Shown: piece after piece, positions 546 to 24,363 of the stretch
How positions within the stretch are numbered: the stretch's first letter is position 1
Layout of the letters: each line of letters starts with the position of its first letter
IMG/VR virus record: IMGVR_UViG_3300030060_000546
Location: 1 to 29,520 of that record
Direction: 5' to 3' (one strand)
DNA from: a virus
DNA length: 29,520 nucleotides
Made by a program: the position numbers and the translations under genes
Notes under the pieces: model-generated
What the model was told of the DNA's origin: nothing
The model's input: the letters and a program-made list of their open reading frames with translations, nothing else
The model's database searches: none

Positions 546-1525
546 TTCTTACTCCCAAATAGTTGTTTAGCTTTTATCAATATATCTGGGTTGAGATCTC
601 GCCATACAAAACTCTCGGCAAACTGTGGGTCTGTTAACGATAACAATTCTGGCAAATCATCTGCAACCTGCATTAGTTTTTCTCTACGTTTACAGGCTTG
701 CACAATGTTATCTAAAGCAAACTGAAGCTCATCAAGCGTAGGTTCCAGTATTACATAGCCAAGTCGATTTGCATACACAATTTTAGGAACAATCTTTGAC
801 AAGTGCCAGTAGCCGGCAAGCTGCATCAAATGCGGTGCTTTTATTTTCTTTGGCAAAGAGTTTGCTCTAGGACTATCTGTATCAGCAGCCTGATCCCATT
901 GTGTCTTTAGTTCTACACGACCCTCACCATAATCAGGCTTACCAAAGTAAGGTAGCTGACAGTGCGGTATGTGACCAAACAGATCTATTTCACCTATTAT
1001 CCTGTTGGCGCCCTGCATGGCCTCTCTCACGCCTTGTGCTGCGTTGTCACACACCAAAGAGAACTCAGACTGTACAAGGTCACCCTTTTTACTACGCTTA
1101 CCCTCAGCATCATAATAGATCCTCTCTCGGTGTGCGATAATAAGATTATCTTTATCAGCATCACGCCAGTGACCACCCTGGAAACCTTGCAGTAAGTTTA
1201 TTGCATCACCCATAGCTTCATTAGGTGACGCATCATCCACTAGTAACCGGTCAGCATACACTTGTGCAGCGCGTCCAGACACCATGTTTGGATTATCTTT
1301 ATACTGCGACAATCCCAGGCAGTCTTTGTAATGCCCAGAATCACGCAATATCTTTCTAGCTTCTTGTTCATCACCCTTTATCTTACCAGTAAGTATCTGC
1401 CATGCTTTATTGTGTTGCACACGCAGGTACGCTTTATCAAAAAACGTCCATGCATCTGGCGTTGATGGATTACTGTGATGCTTATAATTGAACCTGTCGG
1501 CCCATCCTGTTTTTTTCAATCCCAT
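542..1525 (-). CDS. RecB/Cas4-like PD-(D/E)XK exonuclease of a phage recombination pair
   Basis: A protein of 327 residues with the ordered PD-(D/E)XK nuclease motifs. They are GEID (acid at about 181), VELKTQ (E205, K207) and MQLAGYW (Q235, Y239), the last matching the QxxxY motif of RecB/Cas4/lambda-exo-like nucleases. It probably resects double-stranded DNA ends to load the annealing protein encoded immediately downstream, with which it shares an ATGA overlap. The frame is open upstream to an ATG at 1558. I prefer the ATG at 1525-1523, because AAGG lies eight bases upstream and the longer form would run through the divergent promoter region. Alternatives are another PD-(D/E)XK nuclease role; the recombination role follows from the neighbour. 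Confidence 0.75.
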   Translation of the reverse strand: MGLKKTGWADRFNYKHHSNPSTPDAWTFFDKAYLRVQHNKAWQILTGKIKGDEQEARKILRDSGHYKDCLGLSQYKDNPNMVSGRAAQVYADRLLVDDASPNEAMGDAINLLQGFQGGHWRDADKDNLIIAHRERIYYDAEGKRSKKGDLVQSEFSLVCDNAAQGVREAMQGANRIIGEIDLFGHIPHCQLPYFGKPDYGEGRVELKTQWDQAADTDSPRANSLPKKIKAPHLMQLAGYWHLSKIVPKIVYANRLGYVILEPTLDELQFALDNIVQACKRREKLMQVADDLPELLSLTDPQFAESFVWRDLNPDILIKAKQLFGSKK

Positions 1526-1592
1526 ATCTATACCCTTGACATATTGTGTCACGAACATATGCTAACGATAAATTTTTGCAAGGAGAAATTTT
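1526..1592. promoter_or_regulatory. Divergent control region with overlapping promoters
   Basis: Rightward candidate: TTGACA (1536-1541), 16 bp, TATGCT (1558-1563), reading into the HTH gene. Leftward candidate: TTGCAA (1581-1576), 16 bp, TATGTT (1559-1554), reading into the exonuclease gene. The two -10 boxes overlap at CATATG (1556-1561), so the two promoters could hardly be occupied at once. A short dyad GACA-N5-TGTC lies at 1538-1550, inside the rightward promoter, and could be an operator for the adjacent HTH protein. AAGGAG at 1580-1585 is the ribosome-binding site of the rightward gene. The -35 box of the rightward promoter is a full consensus match; the rest is weaker. Confidence 0.55.
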
Positions 1593-1796
1593 ATGAAACT
1601 TGAACAATGGCGCAAAGAAAAGGGGTATAGTTACCCTCAGTTGGCGCAGCGACTAGATGCCAAGCATGGCACTGTCGTGCGGCGTTGGTGTTTAGATAAA
1701 GATCATAAAGATTACAAGATACCATCAACTAAGTATATGTTAATTATACAAGAAACTACGATGGGCGCTGTAACACCTAACGACTTTTATAGGTGA
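1593..1796 (+). CDS. Cro-like helix-turn-helix regulator
   Basis: A 67-residue protein with a helix-turn-helix at about residues 13-33 (YPQLAQRL, then GTVVRRWCLD). Its C-terminus ends in IPSTKYMLIIQ and GAVTPNDFYR, a form typical of small Cro/YdaS-like phage regulators. It is the first gene of the rightward early operon and lies next to the divergent promoter region, so it probably represses or switches those promoters. The start is supported by AAGGAG seven bases upstream. No second, CI-like repressor is visible in the window, so whether this is a lysogeny switch or only an early-gene timer cannot be told. Confidence 0.7.
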   Translation: MKLEQWRKEKGYSYPQLAQRLDAKHGTVVRRWCLDKDHKDYKIPSTKYMLIIQETTMGAVTPNDFYR

Positions 1797-1799
1797 TTT

Positions 1800-2129
1800 A
1801 TGGGTGGCAAGGCGAGTAGAGATAAGGGTGCAGCGTTTGAACGAGAGATCGTAAACTGGCATCGAGAAAAAAATGTAGAGGCAGAACGCATACCTTTGTC
1901 AGGAAGTGTCAAGGGTTCGTTTGCAGGTGACTTAATTATAGGACCAGAGAAAGCGTTGCTTGCAGAATGTAAGAGAAGGGCCAGGGCGTGGCAAGATTTG
2001 TATGATGCCCTGGACCAGGACGGCAGCGATATGCTGTTCATTAGAAAAGACAGGGAGCGCACGTTAGTTGTGTTACCGTTAGAAACTTATGAAGCATTCC
2101 TTGAATGGATAGGCTGGAAGGAGAACTAA
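1800..2129 (+). CDS. Holliday-junction-resolvase-like PD-(D/E)XK nuclease
   Basis: A 109-residue protein of the Hjc-like nuclease type. The conserved pattern is visible: KGAAFEREI (E14), ERIPLSGS, FAGDLII (D44) and AECKRR (E56, K58), giving the E...D...ExK metal site. It would resolve branched DNA formed during recombination or replication and so fits with the leftward recombinase pair, or it trims concatemers before packaging. The ATG at 1800 lies three bases after the preceding stop, with AGGTG just before it acting as ribosome-binding site. A different endonuclease specificity is possible, since the fold is shared by many nucleases. Confidence 0.65.
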   Translation: MGGKASRDKGAAFEREIVNWHREKNVEAERIPLSGSVKGSFAGDLIIGPEKALLAECKRRARAWQDLYDALDQDGSDMLFIRKDRERTLVVLPLETYEAFLEWIGWKEN

Positions 2130-2130
2130 T

Positions 2131-2418
2131 ATGCCATATACACAAGAAGGTGTTGGATACCAGAAAACAGATACTAGTCGTGCAGCAGCACGTAGCAATT
2201 ACCCAGGCAAGCTAAGTGCGCGTGACCGTGTGTTGCAGTTGTTGCAGAAAATGCAGTTGTCTTTAACGTCACATGAGATTGCTGACGTACTGCAAATACC
2301 GGAAGTAACAGTGCGTCCAAGGTTGTCGGAGTTGCGTAACGAAGACAAGATTGTTGACAGTGGTGAGCGTGGACAAACGCCCTGGGGCAAGAAGTGTATC
2401 AAGTGGAGATCAGCATGA
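2131..2418 (+). CDS. Winged-helix DNA-binding protein
   Basis: A 95-residue protein. Residues about 31-92 form a winged helix: RDRVLQLLQ (helix 1), LTSHEIADVLQ (helix 2), PEVTVRPRLSELRN (recognition helix) and KIVDSGER...KCIKW (wing). The TVRPRLSELR segment is common in phage and bacterial wHTH proteins. The N-terminal 30 residues are polar and probably disordered. It follows the nuclease gene by one base, with GGAG ten bases upstream, and is followed by an ATGA overlap, so it belongs to the same operon. It may be a transcription or replication accessory factor; target unknown. Confidence 0.6.
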   Translation: MPYTQEGVGYQKTDTSRAAARSNYPGKLSARDRVLQLLQKMQLSLTSHEIADVLQIPEVTVRPRLSELRNEDKIVDSGERGQTPWGKKCIKWRSA

Positions 2419-2663
2419 GTAGAATAAGTTTCAATCGTGAGCAAGCGCGTGATCTCTATTACGCATTACAATGGGGTATGTCTGAAGTTGGCAATAGAAT
2501 AGCACAAGAAGATTTTTATGAATTTGAATACCCAGACCAGGTAACAGAAGATAAAAAAGAAATGGAACGTCTTAAAAAAATAAATAAAAGGTTAAAGTCG
2601 TTTTTGGAAAAACCAAATTCTCAAGTCAAGACAAAATCTAATATATTTTTGGAGTGGGATTAA
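2415..2663 (+). CDS. Small early protein of unknown function
   Basis: An 82-residue protein that I do not recognise. It is highly charged, with a lysine/glutamate-rich helical stretch (residues about 40-65) likely to form a coiled coil. The start is taken at the ATG at 2415, which overlaps the preceding stop by ATGA; an upstream ATG at 2394 in the same frame would overlap the winged-helix gene by 25 bases and is less likely. It lies in the compact early operon between the winged-helix gene and the first zinc-finger gene. No motif assigns a role. Confidence 0.55.
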   Translation: MSRISFNREQARDLYYALQWGMSEVGNRIAQEDFYEFEYPDQVTEDKKEMERLKKINKRLKSFLEKPNSQVKTKSNIFLEWD

Positions 2664-2908
2664 TGAGATACGGTGGTTTAGAAGTCAAAGGCAGTGAAGC
2701 AAACTTTGTGTTTTACAGTGCTGACGGACAAAGGTTCTATGAACCTGCAAAGAAATGCCCTGATTGCGATGCAAGCGGTCAGGTAATGGGAGAGAAGGCT
2801 GTCATTGATTATGTTAATGGTGGCTCACTTGTTGAAGTTGTAGCAACATGCCTGGAGTGTGAAGGTTTAGGTTTTGTTGTCGATGACATACTGAGCGAGG
2901 ATCTATGA
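2663..2908 (+). CDS. Small zinc-finger protein with DnaJ-type CxxCxxxG pairs
   Basis: An 81-residue protein with two CxxC pairs in a DnaJ-like setting: CPDCDASG (C32, C35) and CLECEGLG (C63, C66). One zinc ion bound by the four cysteines is likely. In DnaJ such repeats bind unfolded protein; in phages similar short zinc ribbons occur in proteins of unknown role. I chose the ATG at 2663 (TAATG overlap with the previous stop, GGAG eight bases upstream) over an in-frame GTG at 2654. The next gene starts by an ATGA overlap. The function is not established by the motif alone. Confidence 0.6.
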   Translation: MRYGGLEVKGSEANFVFYSADGQRFYEPAKKCPDCDASGQVMGEKAVIDYVNGGSLVEVVATCLECEGLGFVVDDILSEDL

Positions 2909-3180
2909 AACATCAATTAGGTTATAAATTTTTTGTTCCGCATGACTATCAAAGCGATGTGTTACATCAGCTTCTGCATGATAACAGGGTTAAATTATTA
3001 TTTAAAAATTTTGATGAATTTAAATGCCTAGAGTGCGGCAAACAATTTAAAGCACAAAACAAAGGCACTGGTGCAAAATATTGCAATGGAACGTGCAGAA
3101 ACAAAGCTAGCCGCAAAAGAAACTTTGATAGGCATGTCGAAGAGGAAATAGCGCGTAGGAAAGCACTGGGGCTGCTATGA
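2905..3180 (+). CDS. Small zinc-finger protein, CLEC...YCNGTCR type
   Basis: A 91-residue basic protein. Residues 41-64 hold CLECGKQF and YCNGTCRNKASRKR (C41, C44, C60, C64), a treble-clef-like zinc finger followed by a basic helix, of a kind often seen in small phage and bacterial nucleic-acid-binding proteins. The N-terminal 35 residues are hydrophobic/aromatic and unrecognised. The start overlaps the preceding stop by ATGA, and its own stop overlaps the next start, so it is translated as part of the early operon. DNA or RNA binding is inferred from the basic tail; nothing more specific can be said. Confidence 0.6.
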   Translation: MKHQLGYKFFVPHDYQSDVLHQLLHDNRVKLLFKNFDEFKCLECGKQFKAQNKGTGAKYCNGTCRNKASRKRNFDRHVEEEIARRKALGLL

Positions 3181-3425
3181 GTACGCATAGCCTTAAATCA
3201 AAGCGTAGGCATCCAGCTGCGCCGCGAGAACGCATAGAAGTCGGGCATATTACTTTTGAGTTGTGTCCGACAAATGCAACGTTTGCATTAATAGCCGGCA
3301 ACGCAGTACAGTCAAAAGATAGGCGCCCATTGTTCTCTGGTATGATAGAGCCCGAAATGGAAAAAGAACTACGCAGGGTAGCGTTTAGAATGAAGCATAT
3401 TCTAAGCAGTAAAAAAGGGGATTGA
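3177..3425 (+). CDS. Small early protein of unknown function
   Basis: An 82-residue basic protein that I do not recognise. A central segment (residues about 20-45, with GHITFELCPTNATFALIAGN) looks like a small beta-rich core, and the C-terminal third (EMEKELRRVAFRMKHIL) looks helical. The start overlaps the previous stop by ATGA. It lies between the second zinc-finger gene and the repeat-bearing gene. Reading direction, tight spacing and the absence of a better frame support it as a real gene. Confidence 0.5.
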   Translation: MSTHSLKSKRRHPAAPRERIEVGHITFELCPTNATFALIAGNAVQSKDRRPLFSGMIEPEMEKELRRVAFRMKHILSSKKGD

Positions 3426-3428
3426 CAA

Positions 3429-3800
3429 ATGCCACTGAAGAAGTACGCTAACGCGAGCCCACCAGGGCGAGATAGTAACTTACAAGTTACTACTACCAGT
3501 AACTACAGTAGTTACTGTAAAGAAACTAACAATAACTATATAACTAGTAATAACTACAAGATCTTACAGGAGACACTGAGTCGGATGTCACCGGCGTACA
3601 GGATGGGTAAGAAACGTAGACAAGAAGATCCTTTGTCGTGGAGAATACAGAAAGTCAGTAGCAAGATGAGGCCAATGATGTCTGTAGATAAATTTTTAGA
3701 AGTTTCTAAAAGTATCGCAGTGGCTAGCCCAATGGAGCAAGTAGAGATTATACATCAGCTAGAGATCTGGCTAGACAAGGTGCATGGTATCAAGTTATAA
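3429..3800 (+). CDS. Last early-operon protein; N-terminal part encoded by a palindrome array
   Basis: A 123-residue protein that I do not recognise. Residues about 16-45 are low complexity and rich in Asn, Ser, Thr and Tyr; they are encoded by an unusual cluster of inverted repeats. The C-terminal half is ordinary and helical: WRIQKVSSKMRPMMSVDKFLEV and an amphipathic helix EQVEIIHQLEIWLDKV. It may be a replication or DNA-binding accessory protein whose gene carries its own binding sites, as lambda O does, but no initiator domain can be named. AAGGGG lies about eight bases before the ATG. It is the final gene before the leader and terminator at 3801-3947. Confidence 0.55.
   Translation: MPLKKYANASPPGRDSNLQVTTTSNYSSYCKETNNNYITSNNYKILQETLSRMSPAYRMGKKRRQEDPLSWRIQKVSSKMRPMMSVDKFLEVSKSIAVASPMEQVEIIHQLEIWLDKVHGIKL
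3473..3558. repeat. Cluster of inverted TAACT/AGTTA repeats (candidate origin or operator array)
   Basis: Two adjacent perfect palindromic arms are seen. TAGTAACTT (3473-3481) is separated by two bases from AAGTTACTA (3484-3492). CAGTAACTA (3497-3505) is separated by three bases from TAGTTACTG (3509-3517). Downstream to 3558, three more TAACT copies follow in direct orientation in an AT-rich stretch (ATAACTATATAACTAG and ATAACTAC). About seven half-sites occur within 86 bases, all inside a coding region. Spacing and symmetry are what protein-binding iterons or operators look like; function is inferred. Confidence 0.6.
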
Positions 3801-3807
3801 CAAACTA

Positions 3808-3891
3808 GAAGTATGAGTTTCATCGCTTGTAAACTGCTCGCATACTTCTCCTGATGGGCCTTAGTTCTCAGTCTGTCTGGTTAACTGGCCC
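3808..3891 (+). ncRNA. Structured leader with a possible anti-terminator stem
   Basis: GAAGTATG (3808-3815) pairs perfectly with CATACTTC (3841-3848). GGGCC-tt-AGTT (3856-3866) pairs with AACTGGCCC (3883-3891), with a two-base bulge. The second stem uses bases 3888-3891, which are also the first bases of the terminator stem that follows, so the two structures exclude each other. This is the layout of an attenuator. No known riboswitch was recognised. Confidence 0.4.
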
Positions 3892-3935
3892 TTGCCTAGT
3901 TAGGTCACGCACTGTCTTGGCGAGGGCGTTTTTTT
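3888..3935 (+). terminator. Intrinsic terminator directly before TerS
   Basis: GCCCTTGCC (3888-3896) pairs with GGCGAGGGC (3919-3927) in a nine-pair stem with one G-U pair, followed by a G and seven T (3929-3935). Only twelve bases separate the T run from the TerS start, and they contain its ribosome-binding site (AAAGGAAG). Any mRNA able to translate TerS from this site must have crossed the terminator. Confidence 0.8.
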
Positions 3936-3947
3936 AAAGGAAGACAC

Positions 3948-4400
3948 ATGGGCAAAAGCAGAACAATTACTACACAAATAATGGAAAAGATTGTTGATCG
4001 ATTAGCTCAAGGCGAAACACTTGTAGATATTACAAGCGATAACAACATGCCTACTTACAGAGCAGTAACAAGAGCAGTCGCAGGTGACGATGACATGTTT
4101 GAGTTGTACAGGCGTGGACGCATACTACAGGCAGAGTTCTACAGCGATAGAATAAACAAGCTAGCAATGGAGCCCTTACCAGAAGATGGTGATGTCAGGC
4201 ATCTCAATGCAGAGGTCAATAGACGTAGACTAGAGATAGATACGCTGAAGTGGACTACAGCCAGGAACCAGCCGTTTGGTATACGTGACAAGAAAGAAGA
4301 CCAGCCACAAGCGCAGCAGTTTACCATTAGCTGGCAAGGTGGCGATGTGGCAGTCAACGCGCTGGAAGAAGAAGAACAAGATACAATGGTTAAACACTAA
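3948..4400 (+). CDS. terS: Terminase small subunit
   Basis: A 150-residue protein. The N-terminal 70 residues are helical with a helix-turn-helix (IMEKIVDRLAQGETLVDI, then MPTYRAVTRAVAG). Residues about 90-115 carry RRLEIDTLKWTTARNQPFGI, the conserved C-terminal segment of Sf6/Bcep22-type small terminases. It recognises the packaging site, forms a ring and presents DNA to the large subunit encoded downstream. The acidic tail (EEEEQD) is common in such proteins. The start follows AAAGGAAG by four bases. Its position just after a strong terminator suggests that its expression depends on read-through. Confidence 0.85.
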   Translation: MGKSRTITTQIMEKIVDRLAQGETLVDITSDNNMPTYRAVTRAVAGDDDMFELYRRGRILQAEFYSDRINKLAMEPLPEDGDVRHLNAEVNRRRLEIDTLKWTTARNQPFGIRDKKEDQPQAQQFTISWQGGDVAVNALEEEEQDTMVKH

Positions 4401-4735
4401 TGCATAACAATACTTGGCATGGACCTGTACCGTTCAATCCTTCTAAGCATAAACCTGTTAAGCTTAAAGACGGTAAGTTTATGACAGAGCGATTGATAAG
4501 CATAGACGCACCAGACGGTAAAACATGGGCAATACCTACAGTGTGGTTTGACCAAGAAGGTAAGCATTCCCAAGTAGACAACGCAACAGCATCAATGGTT
4601 GCCGAAATGTACGAAGAAGCAACAGGTGTTATCTTTCCACGTTTTGATACTGTAGCAGACGCTGAAGCGTTTATACGTAAACGTTCTGCAATGGGTGGAG
4701 CAAGTAAGTCAATGCTAACAAGAGGTGGTAAGTGA
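4400..4735 (+). CDS. Small phage protein with an IPTVW-type domain, function unknown
   Basis: A 111-residue protein, overlapping the TerS stop by one base (TAATG). Residues about 28-95 contain ISIDAPDGKTWAIPTVWF...FPRFDTVADAEAFIRKRS. A similar small domain (an IPT[IV] strand, then a helix, then FP-x-F-x-T-x-x-x-AE) occurs, as I remember it, at the ends of large phage virion and lysozyme-like proteins and as stand-alone small proteins. No catalytic residue can be named. Its place between TerS and TerL suggests a packaging or virion accessory role, but this is inference only. Confidence 0.6.
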   Translation: MHNNTWHGPVPFNPSKHKPVKLKDGKFMTERLISIDAPDGKTWAIPTVWFDQEGKHSQVDNATASMVAEMYEEATGVIFPRFDTVADAEAFIRKRSAMGGASKSMLTRGGK

Positions 4736-4896
4736 AGCGTGTATTTGTGTATACTACACATCCTGAGCGTCCGATCTACGCGCGTGAAATTCATACATTC
4801 ATATGCTTGAATATGTACAGTCAAAGAGCAGGGCAACCACTACATCTTGTGGTTTGCAAAAACTGCATAGCTCCTACAAAAGCTAAGTCGTTGTAA
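4732..4896 (+). CDS. Small GTG-initiated protein (54 aa), function unknown
   Basis: An open frame of 54 codons starts at a GTG that overlaps the previous stop as GTGA, the same coupling used by the TerL and Bbp19-like genes here. The product (KRVFVYTTHPERPIYAREIH..., then LHLVVCKNCIAPTKAKSL) has a CxxC pair near the end and looks like a folded protein rather than a chance translation. No family is recognised. GGTAAG precedes the start. Its small size and lack of homologue knowledge keep confidence moderate. Confidence 0.5.
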   Translation: MKRVFVYTTHPERPIYAREIHTFICLNMYSQRAGQPLHLVVCKNCIAPTKAKSL

Positions 4897-4911
4897 TGAT
4901 TAAACAATATT

Positions 4912-5020
4912 GCATAGTTAACATAATGTTTATTATGCGAATTAGGATTTGCTATGCGTTTTGTGCATACCATACCCCCACCCCCCGACATTTTTGGGGC
5001 GCTCTGTATACACGTATAAT
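4912..5020 (+). promoter_or_regulatory. AT-rich palindromes and possible promoter before TerL operon segment
   Basis: The 142-base gap 4897-5038 holds nested palindromes: GCATAG (4912-4917) with CTATGC (4952-4957), and inside it CATAAT (4922-4927) with ATTATG (4932-4937). Further on lie a C-rich tract (4976-4986) and a perfect TATAAT (5015-5020). No good -35 lies at the right distance (only TTGGGG or TTTTGG), so a promoter here would need an activator. It would read into the 5039 gene and TerL. Confidence 0.4.
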
Positions 5021-5236: not shown

Positions 5237-6510
5237 CGCATATTGAGATACCGTATGAGCCCAGGCCGTTACAGATGTCTTTGCATAATGAGATGCAGGT
5301 AAAGCGGTGGGGTGTTGTTGTATGTCATCGTAGGTTTGGCAAGACTGTATGGGCTATTAATCATTTATTAAGGGATGCATTAGTTTCTGGTAAGACTAAC
5401 CCCCGATATGCTTATATGGCGCCCACCTATCGCCAGGCAAAGAATGTAGCTTGGGATTATATAAAACATTTTGCTGGTGGTATACCGAATGTAAAGTTTC
5501 ACGAGACAGAGCTTAGGTGTGATTTACCTACAGGGGCTCGGATAAGCTTACTGGGTGCTGAGAACCCTGATAGTTTACGTGGTATATATTTAGATGGTTG
5601 TGTTATGGACGAGGTTGCTGACATGCCTGAGAATGTATTTCCGGAAGTGTTGAGGCCGGCGTTATCTGATCGTAAGGGGTTTTGTATATTTGTGGGTACG
5701 CCAAAAGGTCATAATGCTTTTTATGATTATTATGAACAAGCGTCTTCTGATGAAGATTGGTTGAGTGCGGTGTATAAAGCTTCTGAGACAGGGTTGTTGG
5801 ACAAGGAAGAATTAGACGCTGCCAGGGGTATGATGACCAATGATCAGTATATGCAAGAGTTTGAGTGTAGCTGGAATGCGAATGTGCCAGGCGCTATTTA
5901 TGGCAAAGAGTTAGAAGAGGCCACGACAAGTGGCAGGGTATCTAATGTACCTTATGATCCAGCGCACAAGGTAGACACCTGGTGGGATCTTGGGATTGGT
6001 GACTCGACATCAATTTGGTATACGCAGACGGTTGGCAGGGCTGTACATGTTATAGATTATTATGAAAATAGAAATCAGGGTTTGCCGCATTACTGTCAAA
6101 TTTTAAATCAAAAGAATTATTTATATGGTACGCATAACGCGCCGCACGATATAGAGGTGCGTGAATTGGGTAGTGGTAAGAGCCGAAGAGAAGTTGCCTG
6201 GGATCTAGGATTAAATTTTAGGGTGGTTCCCAAGCTTCCTATAGAGGATGGCATACATGCGGCGCAAATGTTGATACCTAGGTTGTGGTTTGATCGTGAG
6301 AAGTGCAAGCAGGGTTTAGAGTGTTTGCGCCAGTATCATAGATCTTATAATGATAGGACAAGATCATTTAGGGCTAATCCGGTGCATGATTGGTCATCGC
6401 ATGCGGCTGATGCATTTAGATATTTTGCTGTAGGGCTTAGGGAAAGTGGGCCTATGATGAAAGCGCCACAAATGCAAGCGATGTCTGATTATGACCCCTT
6501 TGCAGCTTAG
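5233..6510 (+). CDS. terL: Terminase large subunit (packaging ATPase/nuclease)
   Basis: A 425-residue packaging motor. Residues 31-38, CHRRFGKT, are the Walker A motif; 123-127, CVMDE, the Walker B motif with the catalytic glutamate; 154-159, VGTPKG, the coupling motif. The C-terminal RNase-H-like nuclease has WDLGIGDSTS (D252, D257), VIDYYE (D275) and DWSSHAADAFRY (D386, D393). It powers DNA entry into the procapsid and cuts the concatemer. It begins with GTG, in a GTGA overlap with the previous gene; length is normal for the family. It ends inside the GNAT gene by a 20-base overlap. Confidence 0.95.
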   Translation: MTHIEIPYEPRPLQMSLHNEMQVKRWGVVVCHRRFGKTVWAINHLLRDALVSGKTNPRYAYMAPTYRQAKNVAWDYIKHFAGGIPNVKFHETELRCDLPTGARISLLGAENPDSLRGIYLDGCVMDEVADMPENVFPEVLRPALSDRKGFCIFVGTPKGHNAFYDYYEQASSDEDWLSAVYKASETGLLDKEELDAARGMMTNDQYMQEFECSWNANVPGAIYGKELEEATTSGRVSNVPYDPAHKVDTWWDLGIGDSTSIWYTQTVGRAVHVIDYYENRNQGLPHYCQILNQKNYLYGTHNAPHDIEVRELGSGKSRREVAWDLGLNFRVVPKLPIEDGIHAAQMLIPRLWFDREKCKQGLECLRQYHRSYNDRTRSFRANPVHDWSSHAADAFRYFAVGLRESGPMMKAPQMQAMSDYDPFAA

Positions 6511-22977: not shown

Positions 22978-24363
22978 ATGACAGTTAGCAGTACAACCAA
23001 TAAGGTAAGTGCAAATGGGAATGGTTCCCAAACTGTATTCCCTTATTCTTTTAAAATTTTTGATCAAGACGATCTAACGGTTATCTTACGTAACGCTAGT
23101 GGTGGTGAGACAACAAAAACCATTACTACTCACTATACTGTTTCTGGTGTTGGGTCTGCGTCTGGTGGTAATGTTACTATGGGTACAGCCCCAGCAAGCG
23201 GTGAAAGCTTAACAATTATTCGTGAGCAACCATTAACACAAGGTTTAGATCTTGTTCCGAATGATCCATTCCCTGCTGCAAGTTTTGAAGATCAGCTAGA
23301 TAAATTAACGTTTATGGTGCAGCAGCACCAAGAAGAACTTAACCGATCTGTTAAAGGCTCTAAAACAACTACAATTACAGATCCTACATTTACTGAGGAT
23401 GCAACAGCCAGGGCAAATAAACTGTTTGCTTTTGATGGATCTGGTAACATTGATATTACGCAAGAGATTGGTGTTTTTAAAGGTAACTGGGGTTCTGGTA
23501 CAACCTACGCTGTGCGTGACATTGTAAAAGACACAAGCACCAATAACATATTTATTGCCACAACAGCACACACATCGAGCGGTGGTCAGCCATTAACGAC
23601 AAACACTGATAGCGCTAAATGGTCATTGCTTGTTGATGCTGCCTCTGCAACTGCCAGTCAAAATGCGGCGGCTTCTAGTGCTACGGCATCGGCTAATTCT
23701 GCTACTGCATCAGCAAACTCAGCAACTGCATCAGCAAGTTCTGCAACTAGTTCAGCAAATGAAGCAACTAACAGCGCAAATTCAGCTACTGCAAGCGCAA
23801 GTTCAGCGACATCAGCGGCTGCTTCAGCTGCAATCATATCGCCAGTTCAAAACGAAATAACAACTCTATCGCAAAGCATAGCCACACTAAATGGCCTGGC
23901 TGCAATATTCTCTGGCACAACATCAATAACAGTGACTGTTGTAAATGATGGCGGCACAAATAAGTTTGCAATTAATGGCGTAACCGCACCAGCTTTAACG
24001 CTTGTTCGAGGCCATACTTATACTTTCGATGTCAGTGACTCTAGTGTGTCAGGGCATCCTTTGGTTTTTGAAAATGGGGGTAGCAGTTACACCACTGGAG
24101 TTACAACAAATTATTCAGCTGGATCTACTGGGGCAAACGTAGTTTTCGCAGTGCCAAGCGATGCGCCAGCAACAGGCTTAATATACAAGTGTTCAACGCA
24201 TGGTAACGCGATGGGCAACAACATTAGTACAATCGCTAACGACATTAAGACGGTGGCTGATAACAGCGCCAACATTACGACAGTAGCAACCAATATCGGT
24301 ACAATAGCGCAGAAGGCAACGGTAGACGAGGCAACTGCATTAGCCATAGCGTTAGGAGGCTAG
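22978..24363 (+). CDS. Virion-attached tail fibre with carbohydrate-binding-like and cupredoxin-like modules
   Basis: A 461-residue fibre. Residues 1-125 (GSQTVFPYSFKIFDQDDLTV, LDLVPNDPFPAASFEDQLDK) form a T7-gp17-like N-terminal domain that anchors fibres on the tail. Residues about 168-220 (GNWGSGTTYAVRDIVK, then KWSLLVD) resemble a CBM5/12-like module. Residues about 222-285 are SATASAN-type repeats, likely a trimeric coiled coil. Residues about 315-416 resemble a cupredoxin, with H360, C405, H408 and M412. The end (ISTIANDIKTVADNSANITT) is again heptad-like. It probably adapts the other fibres to the tail. Confidence 0.75.
   Translation: MTVSSTTNKVSANGNGSQTVFPYSFKIFDQDDLTVILRNASGGETTKTITTHYTVSGVGSASGGNVTMGTAPASGESLTIIREQPLTQGLDLVPNDPFPAASFEDQLDKLTFMVQQHQEELNRSVKGSKTTTITDPTFTEDATARANKLFAFDGSGNIDITQEIGVFKGNWGSGTTYAVRDIVKDTSTNNIFIATTAHTSSGGQPLTTNTDSAKWSLLVDAASATASQNAAASSATASANSATASANSATASASSATSSANEATNSANSATASASSATSAAASAAIISPVQNEITTLSQSIATLNGLAAIFSGTTSITVTVVNDGGTNKFAINGVTAPALTLVRGHTYTFDVSDSSVSGHPLVFENGGSSYTTGVTTNYSAGSTGANVVFAVPSDAPATGLIYKCSTHGNAMGNNISTIANDIKTVADNSANITTVATNIGTIAQKATVDEATALAIALGG

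Follow-up and report, generated by a model that had tools for sequence, protein, structure and literature searches.

An in-gene array of hairpins and repeats as a candidate replication origin in uncultured relatives of HTVC010P-type pelagiphages

The last early gene of an uncultured pelagiphage relative carries in its 5′ third an array of tandem hairpins, symmetric and direct repeats and AT-rich DNA in which synonymous sites are frozen among relatives. We consider a replication origin embedded in the gene to be the best explanation of this array, with a probability of roughly 60%. The analysis yields a precise 120-bp candidate element and a small partner protein, both open to direct testing, and it shows how a DNA element can be read from uncultured virus contigs through synonymous-site freezing and compensatory hairpin changes within a gene. 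How replication starts in podoviruses without a DNA polymerase is openly discussed; alternative hypotheses have been listed for MPP-C cyanophages (PMC9860041), and use of the host polymerase has been inferred for Skadi (PMC10504331).

Results

Genomic context and anatomy of the array

The window, by which we mean the whole stretch of DNA analyzed, comprises the 29,520 bases of the virus record IMGVR_UViG_3300030060_000546. Its sequence places the source virus among the uncultured relatives of HTVC010P-type pelagiphages, to which it has about 66% nucleotide identity in terL and portal. Its early region is divergent, with annealase and nuclease genes running leftward and, running rightward, genes for HTH, Holliday-junction resolvase, winged-helix and zinc-finger-like proteins, several small genes and finally the array gene, which is followed by terS, terL and portal. 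The array thus lies in the last early gene, where the original prediction, made from the letters of this sequence, had placed it.

The dense array of palindromes and TAACT/AGTTA half-sites that had been described in this coding gene is confirmed and exceeds both Markov and codon-matched chance. Seven half-sites fall within 91 nt, the highest number at any place in 200 windows simulated under Markov-1 being five. When the protein was recoded synonymously 20,000 times, no recoding reached the observed palindromes or the half-site count. Of the two nine-base palindromes that had been reported, the coordinates of both and the arm length of the first hold, but the second has 10-bp arms, and the two are separated by 4 nt (3493-3496) rather than five bases. 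Three direct TAACT copies in AT-rich DNA are present as described, starting at 3533, 3541 and 3551. Directly upstream of the palindromes lie two hairpins that had escaped the earlier description (Table 1). The AT-rich core that contains the direct copies is the least stable 50-bp duplex within 1500-5000, and the 50-bp stretch from 3520 ranks among the least stable 0.09% of the window. An Rfam gathering scan of the window gave no match.

Table 1. Coordinates of the array gene, its elements and compared features (window positions unless a locus is named)
Feature	Position	Strand	Description
Array gene, 123 aa	3429-3800	+	ORF; last gene in rightward early cluster
Hairpin 1	3446-3455		CGC-TAAC-GCG; within 13-nt block TACGCTAACGCGA (3444-3456)
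Hairpin 2	3457-3468		GCCC-ACCA-GGGC; 4-bp stem; sequence changes among relatives, pairing kept
Palindrome 1	3473-3492		TAGTAACTT-AC-AAGTTACTA; 9-bp arms, 2-nt spacer; near-perfect
Palindrome 2	3497-3517		CAGTAACTAC-A-GTAGTTACTG; 10-bp arms; near-perfect
AT-rich core with three direct TAACT copies	3518-3567		Candidate unwinding element (duplex stability)
Coding part of helical C-terminal domain (residues 40-119)	3546-3785	+	Candidate DNA- or replisome-binding domain (AlphaFold2)
Small terminase subunit (Sf6-type)	3948-4400	+	phrog_1482 E 5e-18; PF20901 E 3.6e-19
Palindrome TTGACAYATYGTGTCA	1536-1551
Palindrome TTGACAYATYGTGTCA, locus L019	8058-8073
Palindrome TTGACAYATYGTGTCA, locus L044	6650-6665
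O-like gene, HTVC010P-type isolate L020	31592-32278
O-like gene, HTVC010P-type isolate L126	4318-4992	-
O-like gene, HTVC010P-type isolate L125	16659-17357	-
O-like gene, HTVC010P-type isolate L127	22819-23511	-

Relatives were collected as 19 loci by protein and then as further loci through the C-terminal part and the repeat DNA pattern, giving 48 distinct gene sequences, some of them truncated. That all matches to the array pattern arise by chance was rejected: among 50 contigs matching AGTGATTACAGTGTWARYR, every one with multiple copies proved to carry the array gene, and each of the others has one chance match in an unrelated gene. About 45 gene versions share a single layout, which runs 5′ to 3′ from TACGCTAACGCGA with hairpin 1 through hairpin 2, an invariant GAGATA, the left repeats and the AT-rich core to further repeats on the right in most types, type A (that of the window) being the one without them. 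The TACGCTAACGCGA block, which occurs once in the window, is unchanged in all full-length relatives; the regular expression with which the gene list was drawn contained part of this block, although the loci themselves had entered by other routes, and the block is also present in all complete genes inspected in two other sets of relatives. Other types likewise have GAAACTA..AATAATATA, or AT-rich DNA resembling it, as their core. The repeat unit differs among types, being AGTAACT/AGTTACT dyads in type A and AGTGATTACAGTG in the others; in our reading of the sequences, both fit CAGTRAYTACAGTR. Copy number of the repeats changes in frame.

Hairpin 2 occurs in nine distinct versions (stems include GCCC/GGGC, CGCC/GGCG, GGCC/GGCC, GGGT/ACCC and GGTC/GACC), in which all 36 of 36 cells are paired, all four pairs have changed on both sides and the encoded amino acids change, whereas slid controls are only 8-50% paired. 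This covariation implies that the pairing itself matters. In the palindromes, L010-L013 carry paired G>A and C>T changes that preserve the symmetry of palindrome 1, and they lack the inner pairs of palindrome 2 while retaining its outer half-sites; a one-sided G>A is found in palindrome 1 of L006, L009 and L014-L016.

Constraint on the DNA of the array

The substitution pattern indicates that the constraint on the array acts on DNA. Among 17 close relatives, codons 16-46, which encode the array, show no synonymous change in 15.6 sites, compared with 34 in 46 sites in the C-terminal part, while the nonsynonymous rates are alike (0.065 and 0.059, respectively). At the C-terminal rate about 11.5 synonymous changes would be expected in the array, a Poisson probability of about 1e-5 that is approximate given the relatedness of the sequences. 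The C-terminal part, with 11 nonsynonymous changes in 185 sites against the 34 synonymous ones, is under purifying selection. When 25-codon windows were compared over about 9 kb in as many as 18 sequences, synonymous diversity was zero in a single one, codons 12-36 of the array gene. The pattern also holds between types: in pairs at 75-90% protein identity, the codons for an unchanged residue differ in 36% of cases in the C-terminal part, against 2% for the array and 0% for the region of the hairpins. Codon choice is extreme in the array (Ser AGT 72/78, Thr ACT 39/41, Tyr TAC 33/34) and not elsewhere in the gene (Ser AGT 4/38, Thr ACT 11/47). Together with the predicted disorder described below, these results strongly support the earlier suggestion that the Asn/Ser/Thr/Tyr stretch is dictated by the DNA. 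Alignment of relatives had been proposed as a check, with amino acids kept and inverted repeats lost as the adverse outcome; the opposite was seen.

The encoded protein

AlphaFold2 predicts residues 1-38 mostly below pLDDT 50, so that the array-encoded stretch is disordered, and predicts a mostly confident helical domain at residues 40-119, in which residues ~61-120 form five helices at pLDDT 86-94. The protein has no family by sequence in Pfam, PHROG, NCBIfam or PDB, and profile searches matched it to no replication-initiation or HTH family. Foldseek found no matching fold in PDB and one weak match in BFVD (A0A516LVE7, E 3e-3, TM 0.51). Relatives of the gene were found neither in named phages by tblastn nor in one scan of GTDB genomes. 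Comparison of the C-terminal domain with O-like proteins was not significant (hhalign P 0.02, probability 2%). The N-terminal winged helix by which lambda O binds its iterons is absent, residues 1-39 being mostly disordered, and for want of this DNA-binding domain we do not file the gene as a lambda O protein. For the 95-aa winged-helix protein encoded separately upstream, homology to the O-like N-terminus is not supported, no relation being detectable. Divergence of the C-terminal part does not follow the repeat unit, since types D and E share a unit despite divergent C-termini.

Discussion

Of the two functions that the original prediction offered for the array, a lambda-O-like origin or a cluster of operators, the origin is the better fit by anatomy and synteny. 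Repeated, partly symmetric candidate initiator sites lie inside an early coding gene and adjoin an AT-rich, easily unwound stretch, an AT-rich core being present in all types, and in every context examined the gene closes the early cluster. GC skew, which had been proposed as a check, lends the origin no support, since its sign changes at about 1.5 kb, at the divergent promoter, and not at the array. Genes for a helicase, a primase, a polymerase and an O-like initiator were looked for and not found, either in the window or in the early region of a relative of 33 kb (IMGVR_UViG_3300025759_000369), where only annealase, nuclease and resolvase genes were seen; the remaining gene set in the window is structural. 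We infer that the 5′ third of the gene (~3444-3567) would act in cis as a DNA element whose tandem hairpins and symmetric repeats are bound by an initiator, that the AT-rich core next to them would melt upon this binding and that helicase and replisome would load there, presumably those of the host because no phage-encoded ones were found. The first candidate for the initiator is the helical C-terminal domain of the array protein itself, which may be left free by the disordered linker that the array encodes, because this domain is always inherited together with the array, as in lambda O. We speculate, tentatively, that the element might be a stripped-down in-gene origin of an undescribed kind, in which the initiator gene would have lost its N-terminal DNA-binding domain, the origin would sit at the beginning of the gene and the host replisome would be recruited by a small, new helical domain; its parts would be the covarying tandem hairpins, the switchable repeat unit and the AT-rich core.

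Other explanations of the array have to be weighed against an origin. If the symmetry of the DNA were a by-product of a low-complexity repeat selected at the protein level, the stretch would be in frame and its units would change by multiples of three, as they do. This is nevertheless extremely improbable, given that the array varies in its amino acids but not at its synonymous sites, that the hairpin is kept across residues as different as SPPGR, TPPGG, RPTGR, RVTTR and RSTDR and that the stretch is predicted to be disordered. The array might instead be a pac or cos site, at which the small terminase subunit binds the repeats and the large subunit cuts nearby. In-gene terminase-binding repeats are known, the pac site of P1 being a repeat-rich packaging site within a gene; in the window, terS starts only ~150 nt past the array gene, and the GC-rich symmetric hairpin resembles a cutting site. 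The variable distance to terS weakens this reading: it ranges from ~0.15 to 2.8 kb across 40-odd loci, other types having 0.9-2.8 kb of other genes before terS, while the array gene remains with the early cluster, behind the HTH, resolvase and winged-helix genes. Moreover, the TerS is Sf6/headful-like, an AT-rich core of the unwinding type is unexpected at a packaging site and contig ends do not pile up, the six near the gene (about 4.5 expected) all being at different positions, so that we consider packaging unlikely. A cos site with fixed genome ends was rejected, as most contigs pass through the array and nearby ends vary.

The early transcript could also be the functional molecule, its tandem hairpins acting in cis on transcription, by antitermination as in the put RNA of HK022, or on translation before the late genes. 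The element does sit at the early/late junction, hairpin 2 covaries, the loops are tetraloop-like and the plus-strand RNA folds better than shuffled sequences to a greater degree than the other strand (z -3.5 versus -2.1). As ssDNA, however, the two strands fold about equally, both far better than shuffled sequences (z -4.7 and -4.1), G-U pairs are found in none of the 36 cells, the AT-rich core remains unpaired and no second copy lies near the early promoters; in types B-F the repeats are mostly direct and unpaired, yet their sequence is kept. We judge an RNA element, too, to be unlikely. In another reading, one of the small DNA-binding proteins from the upstream genes would bind the array as a cluster of operators, the second function in the original prediction, or of partition-like sites. 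This is disfavored and in our view rather improbable, even though several HTH and winged-helix proteins are encoded nearby and the sites are dyads. The cluster lies within a coding sequence, distant from promoters, with no other copy in the window. Nor does the upstream winged-helix protein track the repeat unit: it is 97-98% identical between types A and B and only ~45% in type C, even though B and C have the same unit. A better operator candidate is the separate conserved palindrome TTGACAYATYGTGTCA, which in type A contigs shares bases with a -35-like hexamer of the divergent early promoter. Several type B and C contigs have an exact TTGACAYATYGTGTCA between the array gene and terS instead, and the palindrome is likely the operator/promoter of an early regulator.

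Within the origin reading, the least explained part is the hairpin, which as extruded DNA or as RNA would have a role foreign to lambda-type origins; we know of no covarying hairpin in those origins. The array gene otherwise resembles the O genes of lambda and Stx phages and ori lambda in holding symmetric repeats and an AT-rich stretch within an early coding gene, in a variable repeat number that adds residues to the protein, extra iterons in those genes adding 13 aa (PMC7466680), and in dependence on the host replisome, which is presumed here. It differs in the missing N-terminal winged helix, with ~15 residues preceding the array, in the additional hairpin, in the repeats that flank the AT-rich core on both sides in most types and in the lack of a recognized helicase loader (P) gene.

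The nearest counterparts are the O-like initiator genes of HTVC010P, HTVC024P, Skadi-8 and Lederberg (31592-32278, gp16, Skadi8_29 and Lederberg_38, respectively), which match phrog_678/270 with weak to moderate E-values (best E 6e-7) and of which several are annotated as "transcriptional regulator." Like the array gene, they come last in the early cluster and lie upstream of terS, and they contain two or three repeat copies 22 bp apart in mid-gene, followed by AT-rich DNA. The array gene thus occupies the slot that in these relatives holds the initiator and a candidate origin. Their ~230-aa proteins have an N-terminal winged helix, in contrast to the 123-aa array protein, and show no significant sequence relation to it. 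The repeat in HTVC010P, HTVC024P and Lederberg, with 22-bp spacing in all three, is AAGATAGCC or near to it and is translated in two different frames, which points to the DNA as the thing conserved. The in-gene repeats and AT-rich DNA of the O-like genes are candidate origins in cultured pelagiphages. RepL of phage P1 is, to our knowledge, unrelated to the array protein. Its gene contains oriL, likewise an AT-rich origin element inside a coding gene, and synonymous changes in the AT-rich stretch impair replication; the part of that report cited here describes an AT-rich element and not hairpins and repeats (PMC9948254).

Several further features of these genomes deserve mention. Type B and C relatives carry an island of 1.5-2.8 kb, mostly of leftward small genes, between the array gene and terS (L019 5430-8050; L080 5040-6800), which is absent in the window. 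At window 4732-4896, between terS and terL, pi_S is 0.055, against 0.10-0.45 in other genes, and this stretch may be a non-coding or cis-acting element. Synonymous diversity is also low (0.023) at window 5311-5385 (terL codons 27-51), where the start of terL possibly holds an embedded site. In a tail-fibre-like gene, window 23679-23793 consists of tandem 21-bp repeats that encode an Ala/Ser/Asn repeat.
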